Assembly: GCA_902557575.1 (NCBI GenBank)
Contig: CACEAR010000001.1
Location: 124,001 to 188,000 of the forward strand
Direction of reading: 5' to 3'
DNA length: 64,000 bases
Source: an uncultured SAR86 cluster bacterium
Lineage (GTDB): Bacteria; Pseudomonadota; Gammaproteobacteria; Magnimaribacterales; D2472
In this document: piece after piece, positions 5,917-31,123 of the stretch
Layout of the letters: every line of letters starts with the position of its first letter
Position numbering within the stretch: position 1 is the stretch's first letter
Position numbers and translations under genes: made by a program
Notes under the pieces: generated by a model
The model's input: the letters and a program-made list of their open reading frames with translations, nothing else
Database searches by the model: none
What the model was told of the DNA's origin: nothing

Positions 5917-6780
5917 ATGGAAAAAGTTCAAATTGGAAGAGTGGTTGAGTTTTACTCAAACTCATGCCTTGTAGAGATAAGAGAATTTAAAATCCCCTGC
6001 AAGACACCCAAAGATCAAGATATTGTCGTTGGTGATTTCGTTGAAATAGTTCCTCTCCAAGATAGCTTAGAAGTAAAAGGAAAGATCTTAAATAAAGTTC
6101 AAAGAAAAACTTCACTGAAAAGATTCCATAGAGGTAAAAAGAAAGTTTTTGCAGCTAATGTTACAAATATTGCTATCTTGTTATCACCTGTACCACTTAC
6201 TCCAAAAATATTTATTGATAAGTGGTTGGTTCTCTCTGCTGCTGCAGGAATAGATCCATTAATAGTTGTAAACAAAATAGATTTAACTGGCGATGAGGAA
6301 TTTAAAGAAGCTTGCAATATTTATGAGAGTCTTGGGATTAAGATGTTTAAAGTTTCAGGCAAATCAGGAGAAGGGTTGTCTGATATTGGAAGATTTCTTG
6401 AAAATAAAACTACTATTTTTGTTGGGAAATCTGGCTCAGGCAAATCAACAATCTCATCAAAGTTGCTTGATATTAATTTAAAAACTAAAGAACTTAATAA
6501 GTCTAAGGGTGTTCATACCACGTCGGTATCTTCCTTATATGTTAAAGATAAAATAGAAATCATAGATTCTCCTGGTGTCAGAGACATAGAGATTGAGAAA
6601 TTTAGTCCAGATGAAGTCTTAAAAGGGTTTTTTGAAATTAGAGAAGCTGCATTGTCTTGTAAGTTCAAAAATTGTAATCATATAAATGGTGTTGGTTGCA
6701 ACGTTATTGATCAAGTATCAAAAGGCAATATTGCAGAAAGCAGATACAATAATTATATAAGTTTTACAAATAATGAATAA
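5917..6780 (+). CDS. rsgA: Ribosome small-subunit-dependent GTPase RsgA (ORF open from 5851; likely start 5917)
   Basis: Circularly permuted GTPase motifs VVNKIDL, GKSGSGKSTISSKL, DSPGVRD and Cys/His zinc knuckle CKFKNCNHINGVGC. Confidence 0.93.
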   Translation: MEKVQIGRVVEFYSNSCLVEIREFKIPCKTPKDQDIVVGDFVEIVPLQDSLEVKGKILNKVQRKTSLKRFHRGKKKVFAANVTNIAILLSPVPLTPKIFIDKWLVLSAAAGIDPLIVVNKIDLTGDEEFKEACNIYESLGIKMFKVSGKSGEGLSDIGRFLENKTTIFVGKSGSGKSTISSKLLDINLKTKELNKSKGVHTTSVSSLYVKDKIEIIDSPGVRDIEIEKFSPDEVLKGFFEIREAALSCKFKNCNHINGVGCNVIDQVSKGNIAESRYNNYISFTNNE

Positions 6781-7513
6781 AGACACCCACTTCGGTTTTG
6801 AAAAGGTCTCTACTGAAGAAAAACAAGAAAAAGTAAACTCGGTTTTTACTTCTGTTGCAGAAAATTATGATCTTATGAATGATGTCATGTCATTTGGACT
6901 TCATAGGTTTTGGAAAAAAATAATGATTGAACTTGCAGGAGTTAAGCCTGATAGTAAAGTTCTTGATCTTGCGGGAGGAACTGGTGATATTGCAAAAGAA
7001 ATTCATCTTAACTTCCCAGATGCAGAAATCACAGTAGCTGATATAAATGCAGAGATGCTGGTTTATGGAAAGAAGAGATCAATTGATGAAAACTTTTTCA
7101 AAAATACTTCCTTTTGTCAGTTAAATGGTGAACTACTCCCTTTTGGTGATGAATATTTTGACACTACAACTATTGCCTTTGGATTAAGAAACTTTACTGA
7201 TAAAGAAAAGGGTTTATCAGAAATGCATAGATGTCTTGCCAATAACGGAAAGTTAATAATCCTAGAGTTCTCTAAGCCTCAGAATGCTACCTTCAGTAAA
7301 ATATATGATTGGTATTCTTTCAATGTAATGCCAGTTATGGGAAGCATATTTGCTAGTGATTCTGATAGTTATAGATATCTAGCTGAATCAATTAGAATGC
7401 ATCCTGATCAGAAAAGATTAAAAGAAAAAATACTTAAAGCTGGCTTTACAGATTGTAAATTTTATAACTTGCTTAATGGAATAGTTGCCATTCATGTTGC
7501 AGAAAAGAATTAA
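6773..7513 (+). CDS. ubiE: Ubiquinone/menaquinone biosynthesis C-methyltransferase
   Basis: VFTSVAENYDLMNDVMSFGLHRFWKK, VLDLAGGTGDIA, typical UbiE motifs. Confidence 0.95.
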   Translation: MNKDTHFGFEKVSTEEKQEKVNSVFTSVAENYDLMNDVMSFGLHRFWKKIMIELAGVKPDSKVLDLAGGTGDIAKEIHLNFPDAEITVADINAEMLVYGKKRSIDENFFKNTSFCQLNGELLPFGDEYFDTTTIAFGLRNFTDKEKGLSEMHRCLANNGKLIILEFSKPQNATFSKIYDWYSFNVMPVMGSIFASDSDSYRYLAESIRMHPDQKRLKEKILKAGFTDCKFYNLLNGIVAIHVAEKN

Positions 7514-9010
7514 ATGACTATCATCAATCTTTTTTTAGGAGGGCTGAAGATAATTTCAAGAGTCCTATGGTTCAACTTAATTTTTTTAGATAAAGATTCA
7601 GAAAAATTTGGTCGCAAACTCAGAGTAAGCCTTGAATCAATGGGTCCTATGTTTATAAAGTTTGGTCAACTTTTATCTACCAGAACGGATCTTTTATCTA
7701 TTAATGTAGCCAAAGAGCTTCAAAAATTAACTGATCAATGTAAGCCTTTTAGTAGCGACAAGTCGAGAAAGATCATCGAATCTGAGCTTGGTGGCCCAAT
7801 TGAGGATTTCTTTCAAGATTTTGATGAGTCTCCTTTTGCGGCTGCTTCTCTTGCTCAAGTTCATAAGGCAACGCTTAAAGATAATTCAAAGAAGGTAGTT
7901 ATAAAAATATTGAGGCCAGGTATAAGACGAGAAGTGGAAAGAAATGTGAGTCTATTAAAGTCTTTTGCCTCTATCTTTTCAATAACTTTTAAAGATTCAG
8001 AAAGGCTTAAGCCGCTTGAAGTTGTGAGAGATTATGAGAAGACTATTATTAAAGAGCTGGACTTAAAATTAGAGGCTTCAAACACAAACCTTACTCGAAA
8101 AAACTTTAGTGGTTCAAAAATACTATATATCCCTGAAGTTTATTGGGATTTGTCTACCTCTAAGATGCTTGTTTTAGAGGAAATTGAAGGAATTCCTTGT
8201 ACTGATATAGATAAAATTGATGCAGCAGGGGTAGATAAGAAGAAATTGGCTGAAAATGGTGTCCAAATCTTTTTAGATCAGGTCTTCAGAGACAATTTCT
8301 TTCATGCAGATATGCATCCAGGAAATATATTTGTAGATAAGAGAAATACTGAAAATGCTGGTTATGTAGCAGTAGATTGCGCTATTTGTGGCTCATTAAC
8401 GAATGAAGAAAGGTATACGCTTGCTAGAATGCTTCAAGCCGTTATCAAGGAACAGTATCATTCTCTTGCAAAACTCTTCATAAATGCAGGTTGGGTAGAC
8501 AAAAATTCAAATATTAGTGATTTGGAAAATACATTGAGGGCTTGTTGTGAGCCAATTCTTGAAAAACCACTATCTGAAATAGAATTTGGCAAACTTTTAC
8601 TATATTTATTCGAAAGTACTAGAGAGTATGGCTTATCCATACAGCCATCTTTAGTTTTGCTACAAAAAACCCTAATTCATATCGAAGGAATGGGTAGGCA
8701 AATTTATCCTGCTTTAGATTTCTGGGGTTTAGCTGAACCGTATTTAGAAAACTGGATAAGTGAACAATTTAATCCTACAAAACTCAAAAACTACATCTTT
8801 GAAAATAAAGAAGAGATCTTGGAAAGTATCAAAGATACGCCGGGAATGTTTTTTGAAATTGTTGATGAAATCAGAAATATTAATATTTCATCTAATAGAA
8901 ACAATGACCTCATGGTTGAGTTAGATAAAAGAATTAAAAAATTGAAAAACATTTCATACTTCTTGATAGGCTTATTAGGAGTAACAATTATTTTCTTGTA
9001 CTTAAATTGA
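7514..9010 (+). CDS. ubiB: UbiB-type atypical kinase (ubiquinone biosynthesis accessory)
   Basis: KFGQLLSTRTDLL, AAASLAQVHKA, FFHADMHPGNIFV; C-terminal TM; follows ubiE. Confidence 0.93.
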   Translation: MTIINLFLGGLKIISRVLWFNLIFLDKDSEKFGRKLRVSLESMGPMFIKFGQLLSTRTDLLSINVAKELQKLTDQCKPFSSDKSRKIIESELGGPIEDFFQDFDESPFAAASLAQVHKATLKDNSKKVVIKILRPGIRREVERNVSLLKSFASIFSITFKDSERLKPLEVVRDYEKTIIKELDLKLEASNTNLTRKNFSGSKILYIPEVYWDLSTSKMLVLEEIEGIPCTDIDKIDAAGVDKKKLAENGVQIFLDQVFRDNFFHADMHPGNIFVDKRNTENAGYVAVDCAICGSLTNEERYTLARMLQAVIKEQYHSLAKLFINAGWVDKNSNISDLENTLRACCEPILEKPLSEIEFGKLLLYLFESTREYGLSIQPSLVLLQKTLIHIEGMGRQIYPALDFWGLAEPYLENWISEQFNPTKLKNYIFENKEEILESIKDTPGMFFEIVDEIRNINISSNRNNDLMVELDKRIKKLKNISYFLIGLLGVTIIFLYLN

Positions 9011-21591: not shown

Positions 21592-22173
21592 ATGCAAAAC
21601 ATTTTCACTAAAACTACCTTCATGCAAGGTGTATTAAATATAAAGAAAGCTCCGCCAGATGAAGGTTTTGAGTTTGTTTTAGCAGGGAGATCGAATGCAG
21701 GAAAATCAAGTGCTTTGAACTGTTTGGCAAAAAATAAAAAGTTAGCAAGAACAAGCAAAACACCAGGTAGAACTACAGAAATTAATTTTTTTAAAGTCAC
21801 TGACGAAATCAAACTTGTTGATTTGCCAGGATATGGATTTTCTAAAATTTCCGTTGATAAAAAAAAGAACCTGGATACTTTGCTGGATAGTTATTTTTCA
21901 TCAAGGCAATCGTTGTGTGCTGCCATTATCTTTATGGATATAAGACATCCTCTAAAAAATAGCGATATTCAAATGATGGAGTTCTGTCATAAATATGAAG
22001 TCCCATTTATACCTGTTTTAACTAAAAGCGATAAACTAAATAGCTCTGCAATTTCTAGATCTATTAAAGATGTTGAAAAAAAACTTAATTCTAAGTCTGT
22101 CATTGTAACTTCATCGAAAGATGATGAGGGTTTTGACAAGCTTTCAAAGAAAATACTAGAATTTGTAGAATAA
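21592..22173 (+). CDS. engB: Ribosome biogenesis GTP-binding protein (YsxC/EngB)
   Basis: GRSNAGKSSALNCLA, TPGRTTEINFF, LVDLPGYGFSKI, LTKSDKL. Confidence 0.93.
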   Translation: MQNIFTKTTFMQGVLNIKKAPPDEGFEFVLAGRSNAGKSSALNCLAKNKKLARTSKTPGRTTEINFFKVTDEIKLVDLPGYGFSKISVDKKKNLDTLLDSYFSSRQSLCAAIIFMDIRHPLKNSDIQMMEFCHKYEVPFIPVLTKSDKLNSSAISRSIKDVEKKLNSKSVIVTSSKDDEGFDKLSKKILEFVE

Positions 22174-22676
22174 TGCTGGAATATCAGAAACAAGATTGTG
22201 ATTTAACCCTCCGAGAGGGACTAGAGAGCTATTACAAATCATTTCCTGAGTCTACAGAGATACTTGAAGATAGTGAGGAGACTGGTACCCTCCTTAGAGA
22301 TCATGACTGTACACATGTAATCTTTGGTTTAGACATATCTATTGAACAAGAAGCCATTCTTGATAGTTGGGTTCTTTGGGGAAGTAGGTGGAAGCTTAAT
22401 TATCTCCTTTCATACCAAAATCTTCCACAACTAAAGCAACTTTATAAAGACTTGTATAAAGAGTTCGGTGTTTTTGGTTTTATAAAAATATATTGGAAGA
22501 TTGGGGGTATTAAACGCAAGGTTATATATAGAGCTCTAAAAATGAAGAAAAAATGGCCTTTCAAGATGCCTGAAGATTATCTTTCAATGAAAATTAGTGA
22601 TCTTAGAGAAATGCATGGAATTAAAATCTTACTTCCAGAGGAAATGCAATATATTCCGGTAGAAAGAACAGCTTAA
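22173..22676 (+). CDS. COQ4-like protein (putative ubiquinone-biosynthesis factor)
   Basis: RDHDCTHVIFGLDISIEQEAI gives H44-D-x-x-H48-x11-E60, matching the COQ4-family HDxxH-x11-E motif. Confidence 0.7.
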   Translation: MLEYQKQDCDLTLREGLESYYKSFPESTEILEDSEETGTLLRDHDCTHVIFGLDISIEQEAILDSWVLWGSRWKLNYLLSYQNLPQLKQLYKDLYKEFGVFGFIKIYWKIGGIKRKVIYRALKMKKKWPFKMPEDYLSMKISDLREMHGIKILLPEEMQYIPVERTA

Positions 22677-25352
22677 TTAATGCGCTTCATTCCAGTTTGA
22701 GCCAACAGCTGCTTCGGCAATCAAAGGTATTTTTAGCTCTACGGTTTGCTCCATAGTTTCTTTCATTTTCTCCATCACTAAGTCAGCGTTTTCTTTTGGG
22801 CATTCAAACACTAGTTCGTCATGAACCTGCATTATCATTTTTACATCGGGCATTTCATTTAAAATAAGTTTATCGATATCGAGCATTGCCTTTTTAATTA
22901 TGTCTGCTGCGGATCCCTGTAGTGGAGCATTAATAGCTGCTCTCTCTGCAGCCTGTCTTCTTAATCCATTTGCGGCATTTATTTCATTAAGATAAAGACG
23001 TCTTCCCATAATGGTCTCTACAAACATATCTTCCTTCGCTTTGGCTTTAATATTATCCATGTAATCTCTTACCCCGGTGTATCTTGCAAAATAAGTATCT
23101 AAATATGCTTGCGCTTCAGCTCTGGTAATTCCCAGCTGTCTTGTAAGTCCAAAAGCAGACATGCCATACATCAAACCAAAATTTATAGCTTTGGCGCTCC
23201 TTCTTTGATCTTTATTTACCTCTTCAATTGCTACGCCAAAAACCTCTGCAGCGGTTGAAGAATGAACATCAATATTATTATTAAAAGCATTTGTGAGGTT
23301 TTTATCTTCTGATAAATGAGCCATTATCCTTAGTTCTATTTGTGAATAATCAGCAGAAATAAGTGTGTTACCTTTTTCTGGAACAAAAGCTTCTCTTATT
23401 CTCCTGCCTTCAGCGGTTTTAATAGGAATATTTTGTAAGTTAGGTTCTGTAGACGAAAGTCTTCCTGTTGACGTTACGGCTTGTTGATATGAGGTGTGAA
23501 TCCTTTGTGTTTTAGGATTCTCAATATTTATTAAGCTATCTGTATAAGTAGATTTTAGTTTTGCCAATGTTCTATATTGTAGAATTATCTTTGGTAGTTC
23601 ATATTCCTCTGATAGCCTTTGAAGTGTCTCTTCATTGGTAGATGGTTGTCCTTTAGGTGTTTTTCTCAATACTGGTAATCCCTGCTTTTCATATAAAATT
23701 TCTAAGAGTTGTTTTGGGGAATCAAGATTAAATTCCTCTCCAGCTATTTTGAAAGCTTGGGCAGATAAGTCAGCAATCTTGTCGCCAAGCTCTTTGGAGT
23801 GATTTCCAAGTTTTTTCTTGTCTATTTTTGCTCCATTTTGCTCTACTCTTGAAAGTACATGCACAAGAGGATATTCAATTTCTTTTAATAGTTTCTCTTG
23901 AATTGGTTTCTCTTTTAATAACGCAGATAAAGTATTAAAAAGTCTTAGCGTTACATCAGCATCCTCGGCTGCATAGTCTGTTGCAACATCAATTTGTACC
24001 TCTGCAAAACTAATTTGCTTAGAGGCAGTCCCTGTTACATCAGTATATTTTGTAGTTGTGTAGTTAAGATAATAATCTGCGAGTCTATCCATTCCATGGC
24101 GGGTAGCGGTGCTATTAAGCACATATGACATGAGCATTGTGTCTGCCAAAAACTCAGAGAGATTTATGCCATGTCGAGACAAAATTGGAATATCAAACTT
24201 TAAATTTTGGCCGACAGCTTTTTTCTGATTTTTTTCAATAGCAGGTCCTAGTTTTTTTTGAATATAGTCAAGGGAAAGCTGCTCAGGACAATTTTCATAT
24301 GAATGTCCTATAGGAATGTAACACCCTTCATTTTCTTTTACAGAAATTGAAATGCCTATAAGATTTGCTGAAACAGTGCTAACTGAATCCGTTTCGGTAT
24401 CGATTGCAAATGCTTTAGATTTGTCTATCTTTTTTACCCACTTCTCTAAACTTTTTTCAGACAAAACTGTTTCATATTTTGAATCTTTCTTTTGCTCCTT
24501 ATTTTTTTCGTCATTATTTTTTACTGTAGCGAATTCTAGCTCCGAAAAAATCTTATTAAGCTCATCATCATCAGGATTTAGTGTTAACAGATCGCTGAAC
24601 TTAACCTGAATATCTACATCTTGCTTTAAAGATACTAGGTTAATATTTCTATCTAAGTCGTCTAAAGAATTTCTCAGATTCTCTCCAACAACTCCTTTGA
24701 TTGATGGGGCGTTTTCTTTAATTGATTCTAAATCTCCAAACTCATTTAACCATTTAGCGGCTGTCTTCTGTCCCACTTTTGGAACACCTGGAATATTGTC
24801 AGATGAATCTCCAACAAGTGCTAGCATATCTCTAATTTGATTAGGCTTAACTCCAAACTTTTCGATTACATCTTTTTCATTAAATTTTTTATTGGTCATT
24901 GTATTTATCATTGAAACAGCAGGATCCTCAACTAACTGCATTAAATCTTTGTCTAATGAAGAGATAACACAACTATAGCCCTCTTCTTTTGCTATTTTTA
25001 CAATGGTGGCTATTACATCATCAGCTTCTACCCCCTCTATCTCTACTATAGGAAACCCTATTGCCTTGCATATTGATTTAATTGGATCTAATTGAAGCCT
25101 GAGCTCATCTGGCATGGGAGGTCGATTGGCTTTGTAATCAGAATAAATATCGCTTCTAAATGTTTTTCCCTTGGCGTCGAAAACTGTGACGATAGAAGAG
25201 CCATCGTTCTCATTTTTAAGATTCATCATCATGTTCGATACACCTTTTATAGCACCAGTGGGCCTGCCTGATGACGTTGTTAGAGGTGGCATTGCATGGA
25301 AAGCTCGATAAATATACGAAGATCCATCAACAATATATAAATTTTTTTTCAT
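22677..25352 (-). CDS. polA: DNA polymerase I
   Basis: 5' nuclease domain (YIVDGSSYIYRAFHAMPPLT), 3'-5' exo (FAIDTETDS), pol motifs DYSQIELRIMAHLS, RRSAKAINFGLMYGMS, MQVHDELVFE. Confidence 0.97.
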   Translation of the reverse strand: MKKNLYIVDGSSYIYRAFHAMPPLTTSSGRPTGAIKGVSNMMMNLKNENDGSSIVTVFDAKGKTFRSDIYSDYKANRPPMPDELRLQLDPIKSICKAIGFPIVEIEGVEADDVIATIVKIAKEEGYSCVISSLDKDLMQLVEDPAVSMINTMTNKKFNEKDVIEKFGVKPNQIRDMLALVGDSSDNIPGVPKVGQKTAAKWLNEFGDLESIKENAPSIKGVVGENLRNSLDDLDRNINLVSLKQDVDIQVKFSDLLTLNPDDDELNKIFSELEFATVKNNDEKNKEQKKDSKYETVLSEKSLEKWVKKIDKSKAFAIDTETDSVSTVSANLIGISISVKENEGCYIPIGHSYENCPEQLSLDYIQKKLGPAIEKNQKKAVGQNLKFDIPILSRHGINLSEFLADTMLMSYVLNSTATRHGMDRLADYYLNYTTTKYTDVTGTASKQISFAEVQIDVATDYAAEDADVTLRLFNTLSALLKEKPIQEKLLKEIEYPLVHVLSRVEQNGAKIDKKKLGNHSKELGDKIADLSAQAFKIAGEEFNLDSPKQLLEILYEKQGLPVLRKTPKGQPSTNEETLQRLSEEYELPKIILQYRTLAKLKSTYTDSLINIENPKTQRIHTSYQQAVTSTGRLSSTEPNLQNIPIKTAEGRRIREAFVPEKGNTLISADYSQIELRIMAHLSEDKNLTNAFNNNIDVHSSTAAEVFGVAIEEVNKDQRRSAKAINFGLMYGMSAFGLTRQLGITRAEAQAYLDTYFARYTGVRDYMDNIKAKAKEDMFVETIMGRRLYLNEINAANGLRRQAAERAAINAPLQGSAADIIKKAMLDIDKLILNEMPDVKMIMQVHDELVFECPKENADLVMEKMKETMEQTVELKIPLIAEAAVGSNWNEAH

Positions 25353-30022: not shown

Positions 30023-31123
30023 ATGTCTTTAACAAAAGCTGACGATTATCCAATACATCAAATTTCAAAGCCTGTTTCTGAAGTAGGGTCTGAAAGAAAC
30101 TTTTATGACAGATATTTTTTTAATGGTTATTCAAAAAAAGATGATATCTACTTTGGCGCTGTGCTCTGCGTTTACCCAAATCTAAATATAATGGATGGAG
30201 CATTTACTCTTGCTTATAAAGGAAAACAATACAACTCGAGAGCCTCAAGGGTTTTAAATTTAGAAAGGCTTGAAACCGAAGTGGGACCTCTAAAAGTTGA
30301 GGTTATTGAGCCACTAAAAAAACTAAAAGTCTCTTTAAACGATGTTGAAAATAATTTTGAGGTTGATTTAACTATCACTGGCAGATTTGAGCCAATGAGA
30401 GAGCCTCAAATGCAATTATTCAATGGCCCTAGAATGATTATGGATACTTGTCGACTAACTCAGCAGGGTAAATGGTCTGGAAAGATAAAAATAAATGATG
30501 AGCAAATTGATGTGACTGAGGATGCCTTTGTTGGAACAAGGGATCGATCTTGGGGAGTTAGGCCGGTTGGAGCTTACGATAGTCAGCCTGTAGTTCCTTT
30601 TAATATGCCTCAATTTTATTGGTTATGGGCCCCCTTCCACTTTGAGGATCTTTCTGCACATATTTACTTTATCGATAAAGCTGACGGAGCTCCAGACACC
30701 ATCCTAGCAATTATGCAGGGTCCAGAATTTGAAGGTGAGATAGAGTTACGTAACGTAAAAAAGAAAGTGTCTTATGTGCCTAAATCTAGAAGAGTTGAGT
30801 CCATGATAATTACTGCAGCTGATAAAGATGGTAACAATGTTGAGATTAGTATTGACTGCGGCATGAAAGCATTTATGTGCGGTCTAGGGTACATGCATCC
30901 TGATTGGGGTCATGGTCATGATAAGGGGGATAATGCAACTCACTTTGATGAATATGATCTAAATGAAGATCCTGGTGATCCGCCATATTTACATGTTCAG
31001 GCTCTTTCGAATGCCACATTAAAAGTTGGAGATAAAGCTTATGAAGGAAGGGGTGTTTTAGAGCAACTTATTCTAGGAGCGCATGAACCAAGTGGGTTTG
31101 TTGATCTTTTTGATAAACCTTAA
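30023..31123 (+). CDS. AttH/CrtC-like lipocalin-fold domain protein, uncharacterised
   Basis: VGTRDRSWGVRPVG motif typical of hydroxyneurosporene synthase/AttH-like families; paired with a downstream APH-family protein. Confidence 0.6.
   Translation: MSLTKADDYPIHQISKPVSEVGSERNFYDRYFFNGYSKKDDIYFGAVLCVYPNLNIMDGAFTLAYKGKQYNSRASRVLNLERLETEVGPLKVEVIEPLKKLKVSLNDVENNFEVDLTITGRFEPMREPQMQLFNGPRMIMDTCRLTQQGKWSGKIKINDEQIDVTEDAFVGTRDRSWGVRPVGAYDSQPVVPFNMPQFYWLWAPFHFEDLSAHIYFIDKADGAPDTILAIMQGPEFEGEIELRNVKKKVSYVPKSRRVESMIITAADKDGNNVEISIDCGMKAFMCGLGYMHPDWGHGHDKGDNATHFDEYDLNEDPGDPPYLHVQALSNATLKVGDKAYEGRGVLEQLILGAHEPSGFVDLFDKP

Follow-up and report, generated by a model that had tools for sequence, protein, structure and literature searches.

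A short, remote Coq4 relative of the SAR86 cluster as a tentative candidate for a missing ubiquinone decarboxylase

The coq4L gene, its neighbours and its distribution

The 64,000-nucleotide stretch of DNA analysed here, referred to as the window, belongs to the genome of a SAR86 cluster bacterium (G000; 1.16 Mb, 93% complete). In agreement with a preliminary description of this DNA, which had placed a COQ4-like reading frame between engB and polA, the forward strand contains an open reading frame with an ATG start at positions 22173..22676 that encodes a protein of 167 amino acids. We name this Coq4-like gene coq4L; its assignment is based on the reading frame itself, its orthologs, their alignment and an AlphaFold (AF2) model. 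The upstream neighbour, given as context only, is engB (21592..22173, forward strand; Pfam MMR_HSR1), encoding a ribosome-biogenesis GTPase, and the engB stop codon and the coq4L start codon overlap by one base (TAATG). Gene polA, which is convergent to coq4L, extends from position 22677. The order engB-coq4L-polA is conserved at most loci of one SAR86 family, that of the window genome, and in more distant relatives coq4L is placed elsewhere.

The closest named records, from uncultured SAR86 bacteria, encode proteins 93-98% identical to the window protein. Sequence searches detected coq4L orthologs in 47 of the 61 genomes of the SAR86 order, and a profile search gave 50, including three weak matches that were discounted. 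These three matches, in genomes of genus g14 (E 0.002-0.02), contained internal stops, and the loci fetched gave no profile match; these candidates were rejected. A further 61 coq4L loci were obtained from SAR86 records or from gammaproteobacterial or proteobacterial MAGs. Thus, coq4L is a genuine gene of the SAR86 cluster. Two genomes of another SAR86 family harbor tandem or nearby copies (L099:5163-6236; L101:5294-5818 and 7049-7576), which form pairs of diverged genes that both contain the motif described below. Within the genus of the window genome, the copy present at the engB-polA site of locus L093 (G005) is 45% identical, versus 79-98% in other congeners. Elsewhere in the window, a 366-aa open reading frame at 30023-31123, for which no Pfam family was matched at E <= 0.001, lies between the genes for a quinone-oxidoreductase-like protein and an APH-family kinase.

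Outside SAR86, the coq4L profile matched proteins of one genus only (g216), in three of 369 gammaproteobacterial genomes (E 1e-30 to 1e-33). These three genomes are about 2.0-2.1 Mb in size, have a G+C content of 29-34% and encode a Francisella-like DnaA, and the acetate/propionate kinase of g216 is 70% identical to that of Francisella tularensis (PDB 3KHY). Together, these genome traits, the G+C content, DnaA and the kinase point to g216 being Francisella or a near relative of it.

Conserved residues and relation to Coq4

Residues 44-60 of the coq4L protein (HDCTHVIFGLDISIEQE; codons at 22302..22352, forward strand) read H44-D45-C-T-H48-x11-E60 and fit the motif HDxxH-x11-E exactly, so that the residues and the COQ4 spacing given in the preliminary description, like its coordinates, are correct. 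This is the only match to the motif among the 23,384 residues of the open frames of at least 100 aa in the window. The Coq4 signature has been published as HDXXH-(X)10-13-E, and the cyanobacterial protein Alr8543 has Mg ions associated with the residues of this motif (PMC9774615). The coq4L proteins carry this signature in an alignment of 56 sequences, three of them from outside the SAR86 order; the x11 spacing is exact in 53, and the three Francisella-like sequences have x12. Eight residues, H44, D45, H48, F51, G52, E60, W128 and R145, are invariant in all 56 sequences, which go down to 27% identity, and the predicted metal ligands H44, D45, H48 and E60 therefore make up half of the invariant columns. 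In a set of 25 diverse members the invariant residues are G16, H44, D45, H48, F51, G52, E60, G99, W128, R145 and L153. The W128 codon (22554..22556, forward strand) lies in a K-K-W segment, and invariant R145 is part of a C-terminal motif, kI-DLRE-GI-IL, encoded by the codons of residues 136-153 (22578..22631, forward strand).

Searched on its own, the window protein matched no Pfam family at E <= 10 and no NCBIfam family, and the three Francisella-like proteins gave no Pfam Coq4 match. When 25 relatives were scanned singly against 24,736 families, 14 matched PF05019 (Coq4), with a best E value of 7e-4, and the next commonest family was matched by two relatives only. The Coq4 HMM search proposed in the preliminary description was thus negative for the window protein and positive for 14 of its 25 relatives, all below the cut-off. 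The PF05019 gathering cut-off of 22.9 bits was passed in none of the 61 genomes of the order, and the coq4L protein falls outside PF05019 in its curated form. The matches of the relatives begin at or near the HD motif, from model positions 116-126 onward, and the best aligned one is 58 residues long. Residues 44-46 align to about position 126 of the model, corresponding to some 80 missing N-terminal positions, and the coq4L protein does not reach the full length of the Coq4 domain (~220 positions).

Profile comparisons gave results of different strength for the whole protein and for its C-terminal part. Plain hhalign of the coq4L profile against 11 bacterial Coq4 proteins gave a weak result (probability 2%), and the whole-profile score was reached by 3 of 400 shuffles. 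Because of this weak whole-profile score we relied on the Pfam matches across relatives, on a structure search and on a test in which the HD motif was masked. In the masked test the C-terminal segment (L..kI-DLREeyGI) aligned to the motif at the end of Coq4 (pLD..R.rLnI) with a score of 22.0, which was reached by none of 200 column shuffles. The C-terminal R..(L)xI motif of the Coq4 domain is therefore present, and it is collinear with the HD motif.

PDB chains searched by sequence and by profile gave no Coq4 match, only noise. The AF2 model of the window protein (pLDDT 89.1), compared by Foldseek with 350,542 PDB chains, ranked Alr8543 (6E12) first with a probability of 0.51. For an ortholog modelled with the 56 sequences (pLDDT 92.8), the two Alr8543 chains ranked 1 and 2 of the 350,542, with probabilities of 0.87 and 0.77 over 160 and 157 columns, and the next-best chain had a probability of 0.03. 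With a TM-score of 0.37-0.47 and an E value of 0.15, this is a remote, moderate match of a predicted model to the all-helical Coq4 fold as present in Alr8543. The preliminary description had named the absence of a Coq4 HMM match together with an unrelated fold as the outcome that would speak against a Coq4 relation; this combination was not found, because the predicted fold matches the Coq4 structure.

The absence of a Pfam match for the window protein itself, the 2% probability of the plain profile comparison and the lack of a sequence match to Coq4 chains in the PDB would also be expected if coq4L were not homologous to Coq4 and its HDxxH-x11-E match were convergent or due to chance. However, the Pfam matches of the relatives, the structure search and the second, collinear motif all name Coq4, and we consider non-homology very improbable. 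Because these three lines agree, we conclude with high confidence that the coq4L protein is a short, remote relative of Coq4. The designation COQ4-like hence stands in the sense of a distant, shortened relative, and fails in the sense of membership of the curated family.

The ubiquinone pathway and the possible role of coq4L

A survey of ubiD and ubiX, suggested in the preliminary description, detected UbiD in none of the 61 genomes of the order; in the same search 9 of 14 controls were positive (E. coli and eight others). UbiX had no match in the window genome and none above the cut-off across the order, where the other genomes gave sub-threshold matches only, in frames of ~400 aa that we read as CoaBC. 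UbiA is encoded by 61 of 61 genomes. In the window genome ubiC adjoins ubiA, and one UbiH-type hydroxylase gene is present; the gene preceding it presumably encodes aminopeptidase P, an arrangement as in E. coli. The window itself contains ubiE (6773..7513, forward strand; Pfam Ubie_methyltran, E 9e-80), encoding the ubiquinone C-methyltransferase, and ubiB (7514..9010, forward strand; Pfam ABC1, E 1e-74), encoding an atypical kinase. In gammaproteobacteria ubiJ usually sits between these two genes. As already noticed in the preliminary description, no ubiJ is present at the ubiE-ubiB junction (7505-7525), where ubiB begins directly after ubiE and leaves no room for it. With UbiA encoded throughout the order, ubiC, ubiE, ubiB and a UbiH-type gene present in the window genome, no UbiD and no UbiX above the cut-off, the ubiquinone pathway of the SAR86 order thus runs in the absence of the classical decarboxylase. 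The suggestion that this lineage uses a rewired Q pathway is plausible: it holds as far as the gap in the pathway and the lack of UbiJ between UbiE and UbiB are concerned, and coq4L would be a putative means of filling the gap.

We infer that coq4L encodes a minimal, all-helical Coq4-like metalloprotein in which H44, D45, H48 and E60 would hold a divalent metal. The protein would take a polyprenyl precursor as substrate and remove the C1 carboxyl of 3-polyprenyl-4-hydroxybenzoate. Decarboxylation might be coupled to oxidation to the C1 hydroxyl, a reaction that has been reported for human COQ4; coq4L would in this way replace the prenyl-FMN pair UbiD/UbiX that the SAR86 order lacks. We assign a probability of roughly 0.45 to the reading that the ubiquinone precursor loses its C1 carboxyl, perhaps by oxidation, through the action of the coq4L protein. 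Such a reaction has precedents. A reconstructed animal COQ4 binds zinc through the motif and decarboxylates the C1 carboxyl in vitro in a zinc-dependent manner, and double mutants of the motif give no product (PMC7615680); in human cells, COQ4 is reported to act in oxidative decarboxylation (review PMC12938788).

The lack of UbiD in both carrier lineages favors a decarboxylase role, UbiD being absent from the three Francisella-like genomes as well. A review lists F. tularensis among the species in which UbiD-UbiX is absent, and mentions that alternatives have been proposed for it and for Xanthomonas campestris (PMC8854274). We consider it possible, if a tentative proposal, that coq4L-type proteins constitute a minimal Coq4 branch, invisible to Pfam, that would be the missing ubiquinone decarboxylase of SAR86 and Francisella, using a metal and no prenyl-FMN. 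A study of F. novicida reportedly describes the ubiquinone decarboxylase of that organism as unidentified. UbiD is present in 231 of the 369 gammaproteobacterial genomes; since it is absent from the other 138 (37%), the association rests on two independent lineages only, and the co-occurrence of coq4L with the absence of UbiD is by itself not significant.

Other results count against a decarboxylase role. No ubi genes were seen beside coq4L at the loci examined, and membership of the Coq4 family does not imply a link with ubiquinone, as cyanobacterial Alr8543 illustrates. Moreover, the genera g8 (4/4 genomes), g11, g14 and g18 of the order have neither coq4L nor UbiD and keep UbiA, which indicates that another route exists there; two SAR86 clades without coq4L have gained no UbiD. 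The lack of ubi neighbours, the absence of coq4L from some SAR86 clades that retain ubiquinone genes, the occurrence of several Coq4 copies in some other genomes and the structure of Alr8543, which was solved with oleic acid, would all fit a protein of the Coq4 superfamily that binds metal and lipid and is unrelated to ubiquinone, for instance an isoprenoid or fatty-acid related enzyme. However, most genomes of the strongly reduced, UbiD-less SAR86 lineage have retained coq4L, which recurs in a second lineage without UbiD, and we regard a role outside ubiquinone synthesis as distinctly unlikely.

A flavin monooxygenase of the window genome, of the salicylate-monooxygenase kind, also counts against a decarboxylase role of coq4L. 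Outside the window, near ubiCA and ~6 kb from ubiA, lies a gene for a 368-aa flavin monooxygenase (G000:C1:281506-282612; L158:2507-3613). Among its closest relatives of solved structure are 6-hydroxynicotinate monooxygenase, salicylate monooxygenase and a vanillate 1-hydroxylase that acts decarboxylatively; the protein is a candidate decarboxylative hydroxylase of the UbiN type. In Rhodobacter capsulatus, UbiN, which is similar to salicylate hydroxylase, takes the place of UbiD under air (PMC10626278). Such an enzyme could carry out a decarboxylative hydroxylation at C1, with the coq4L protein acting as an accessory binder of quinone precursors in a role like that of UbiJ. Consistent with this, ubiE and ubiB have no ubiJ between them, yeast Coq4 is said in the literature to organise the Q complex, and similar weak matches to flavin monooxygenases, in frames of ~390 aa, are present in genomes without coq4L. 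On the other hand, the flavin monooxygenase group is broad, and the 368-aa protein was placed by its broad kind; unrelated genes separate it from ubiA, and no Coq4-like partner has been described for UbiN in Rhodobacter (PMC10626278). This division of labour therefore appears unlikely to us, though it deserves more weight than a role unrelated to ubiquinone, and decarboxylation by the coq4L protein itself remains the reading that we prefer.

Significance and comparison with known systems

SAR86 bacteria are among the most abundant marine bacteria, and to our knowledge few of the enzymes that replace UbiD in ubiquinone makers are known. If the preferred reading is true, gammaproteobacteria would possess a COQ4-type step, and coq4L would point to the missing ubiquinone step in Francisella. 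Human COQ4 serves coenzyme Q synthesis in mitochondria, mutations in it cause primary coenzyme Q deficiency, and a COQ4 relative of ~165 aa would serve as a simple bacterial model of the human protein.

UbiD/UbiX act at the same pathway step as that proposed for coq4L, but they are unrelated proteins, and UbiD depends on prenylated FMN, which UbiX supplies. UbiN of Rhodobacter capsulatus is a known stand-in for UbiD, in air; unlike the coq4L protein, to which it is unrelated, it is a flavin monooxygenase, a broad kind of protein that is encoded elsewhere in the window genome. UbiZ, predicted in Acinetobacter (PMC4746308), has likewise been proposed as a replacement for UbiD/UbiX, whereas the coq4L profile matches only SAR86 and the Francisella-like genus in the 369 gammaproteobacterial genomes, among which Acinetobacter is not necessarily included.

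Alr8543 of Nostoc (PDB 6E12) is the top structural match, with 160 aligned columns and the same metal-binding motif, but it is longer than the coq4L protein and its similarity is limited to 17-18% identity and the TM-score range given above. The source organism, Nostoc, is not known to contain ubiquinone. Compared with COQ4/Coq4 (PF05019), coq4L proteins are short (155-179 aa versus about 250-270 aa in most bacterial Coq4 proteins seen), are missing ~80 N-terminal domain residues and score below the Pfam cut-off. Yet they share with that family the HDxxH-x11-E motif with invariant H, D, H and E, the HV-x-x-G that follows it, the C-terminal R...I motif and an all-helical model that matches the family structure.
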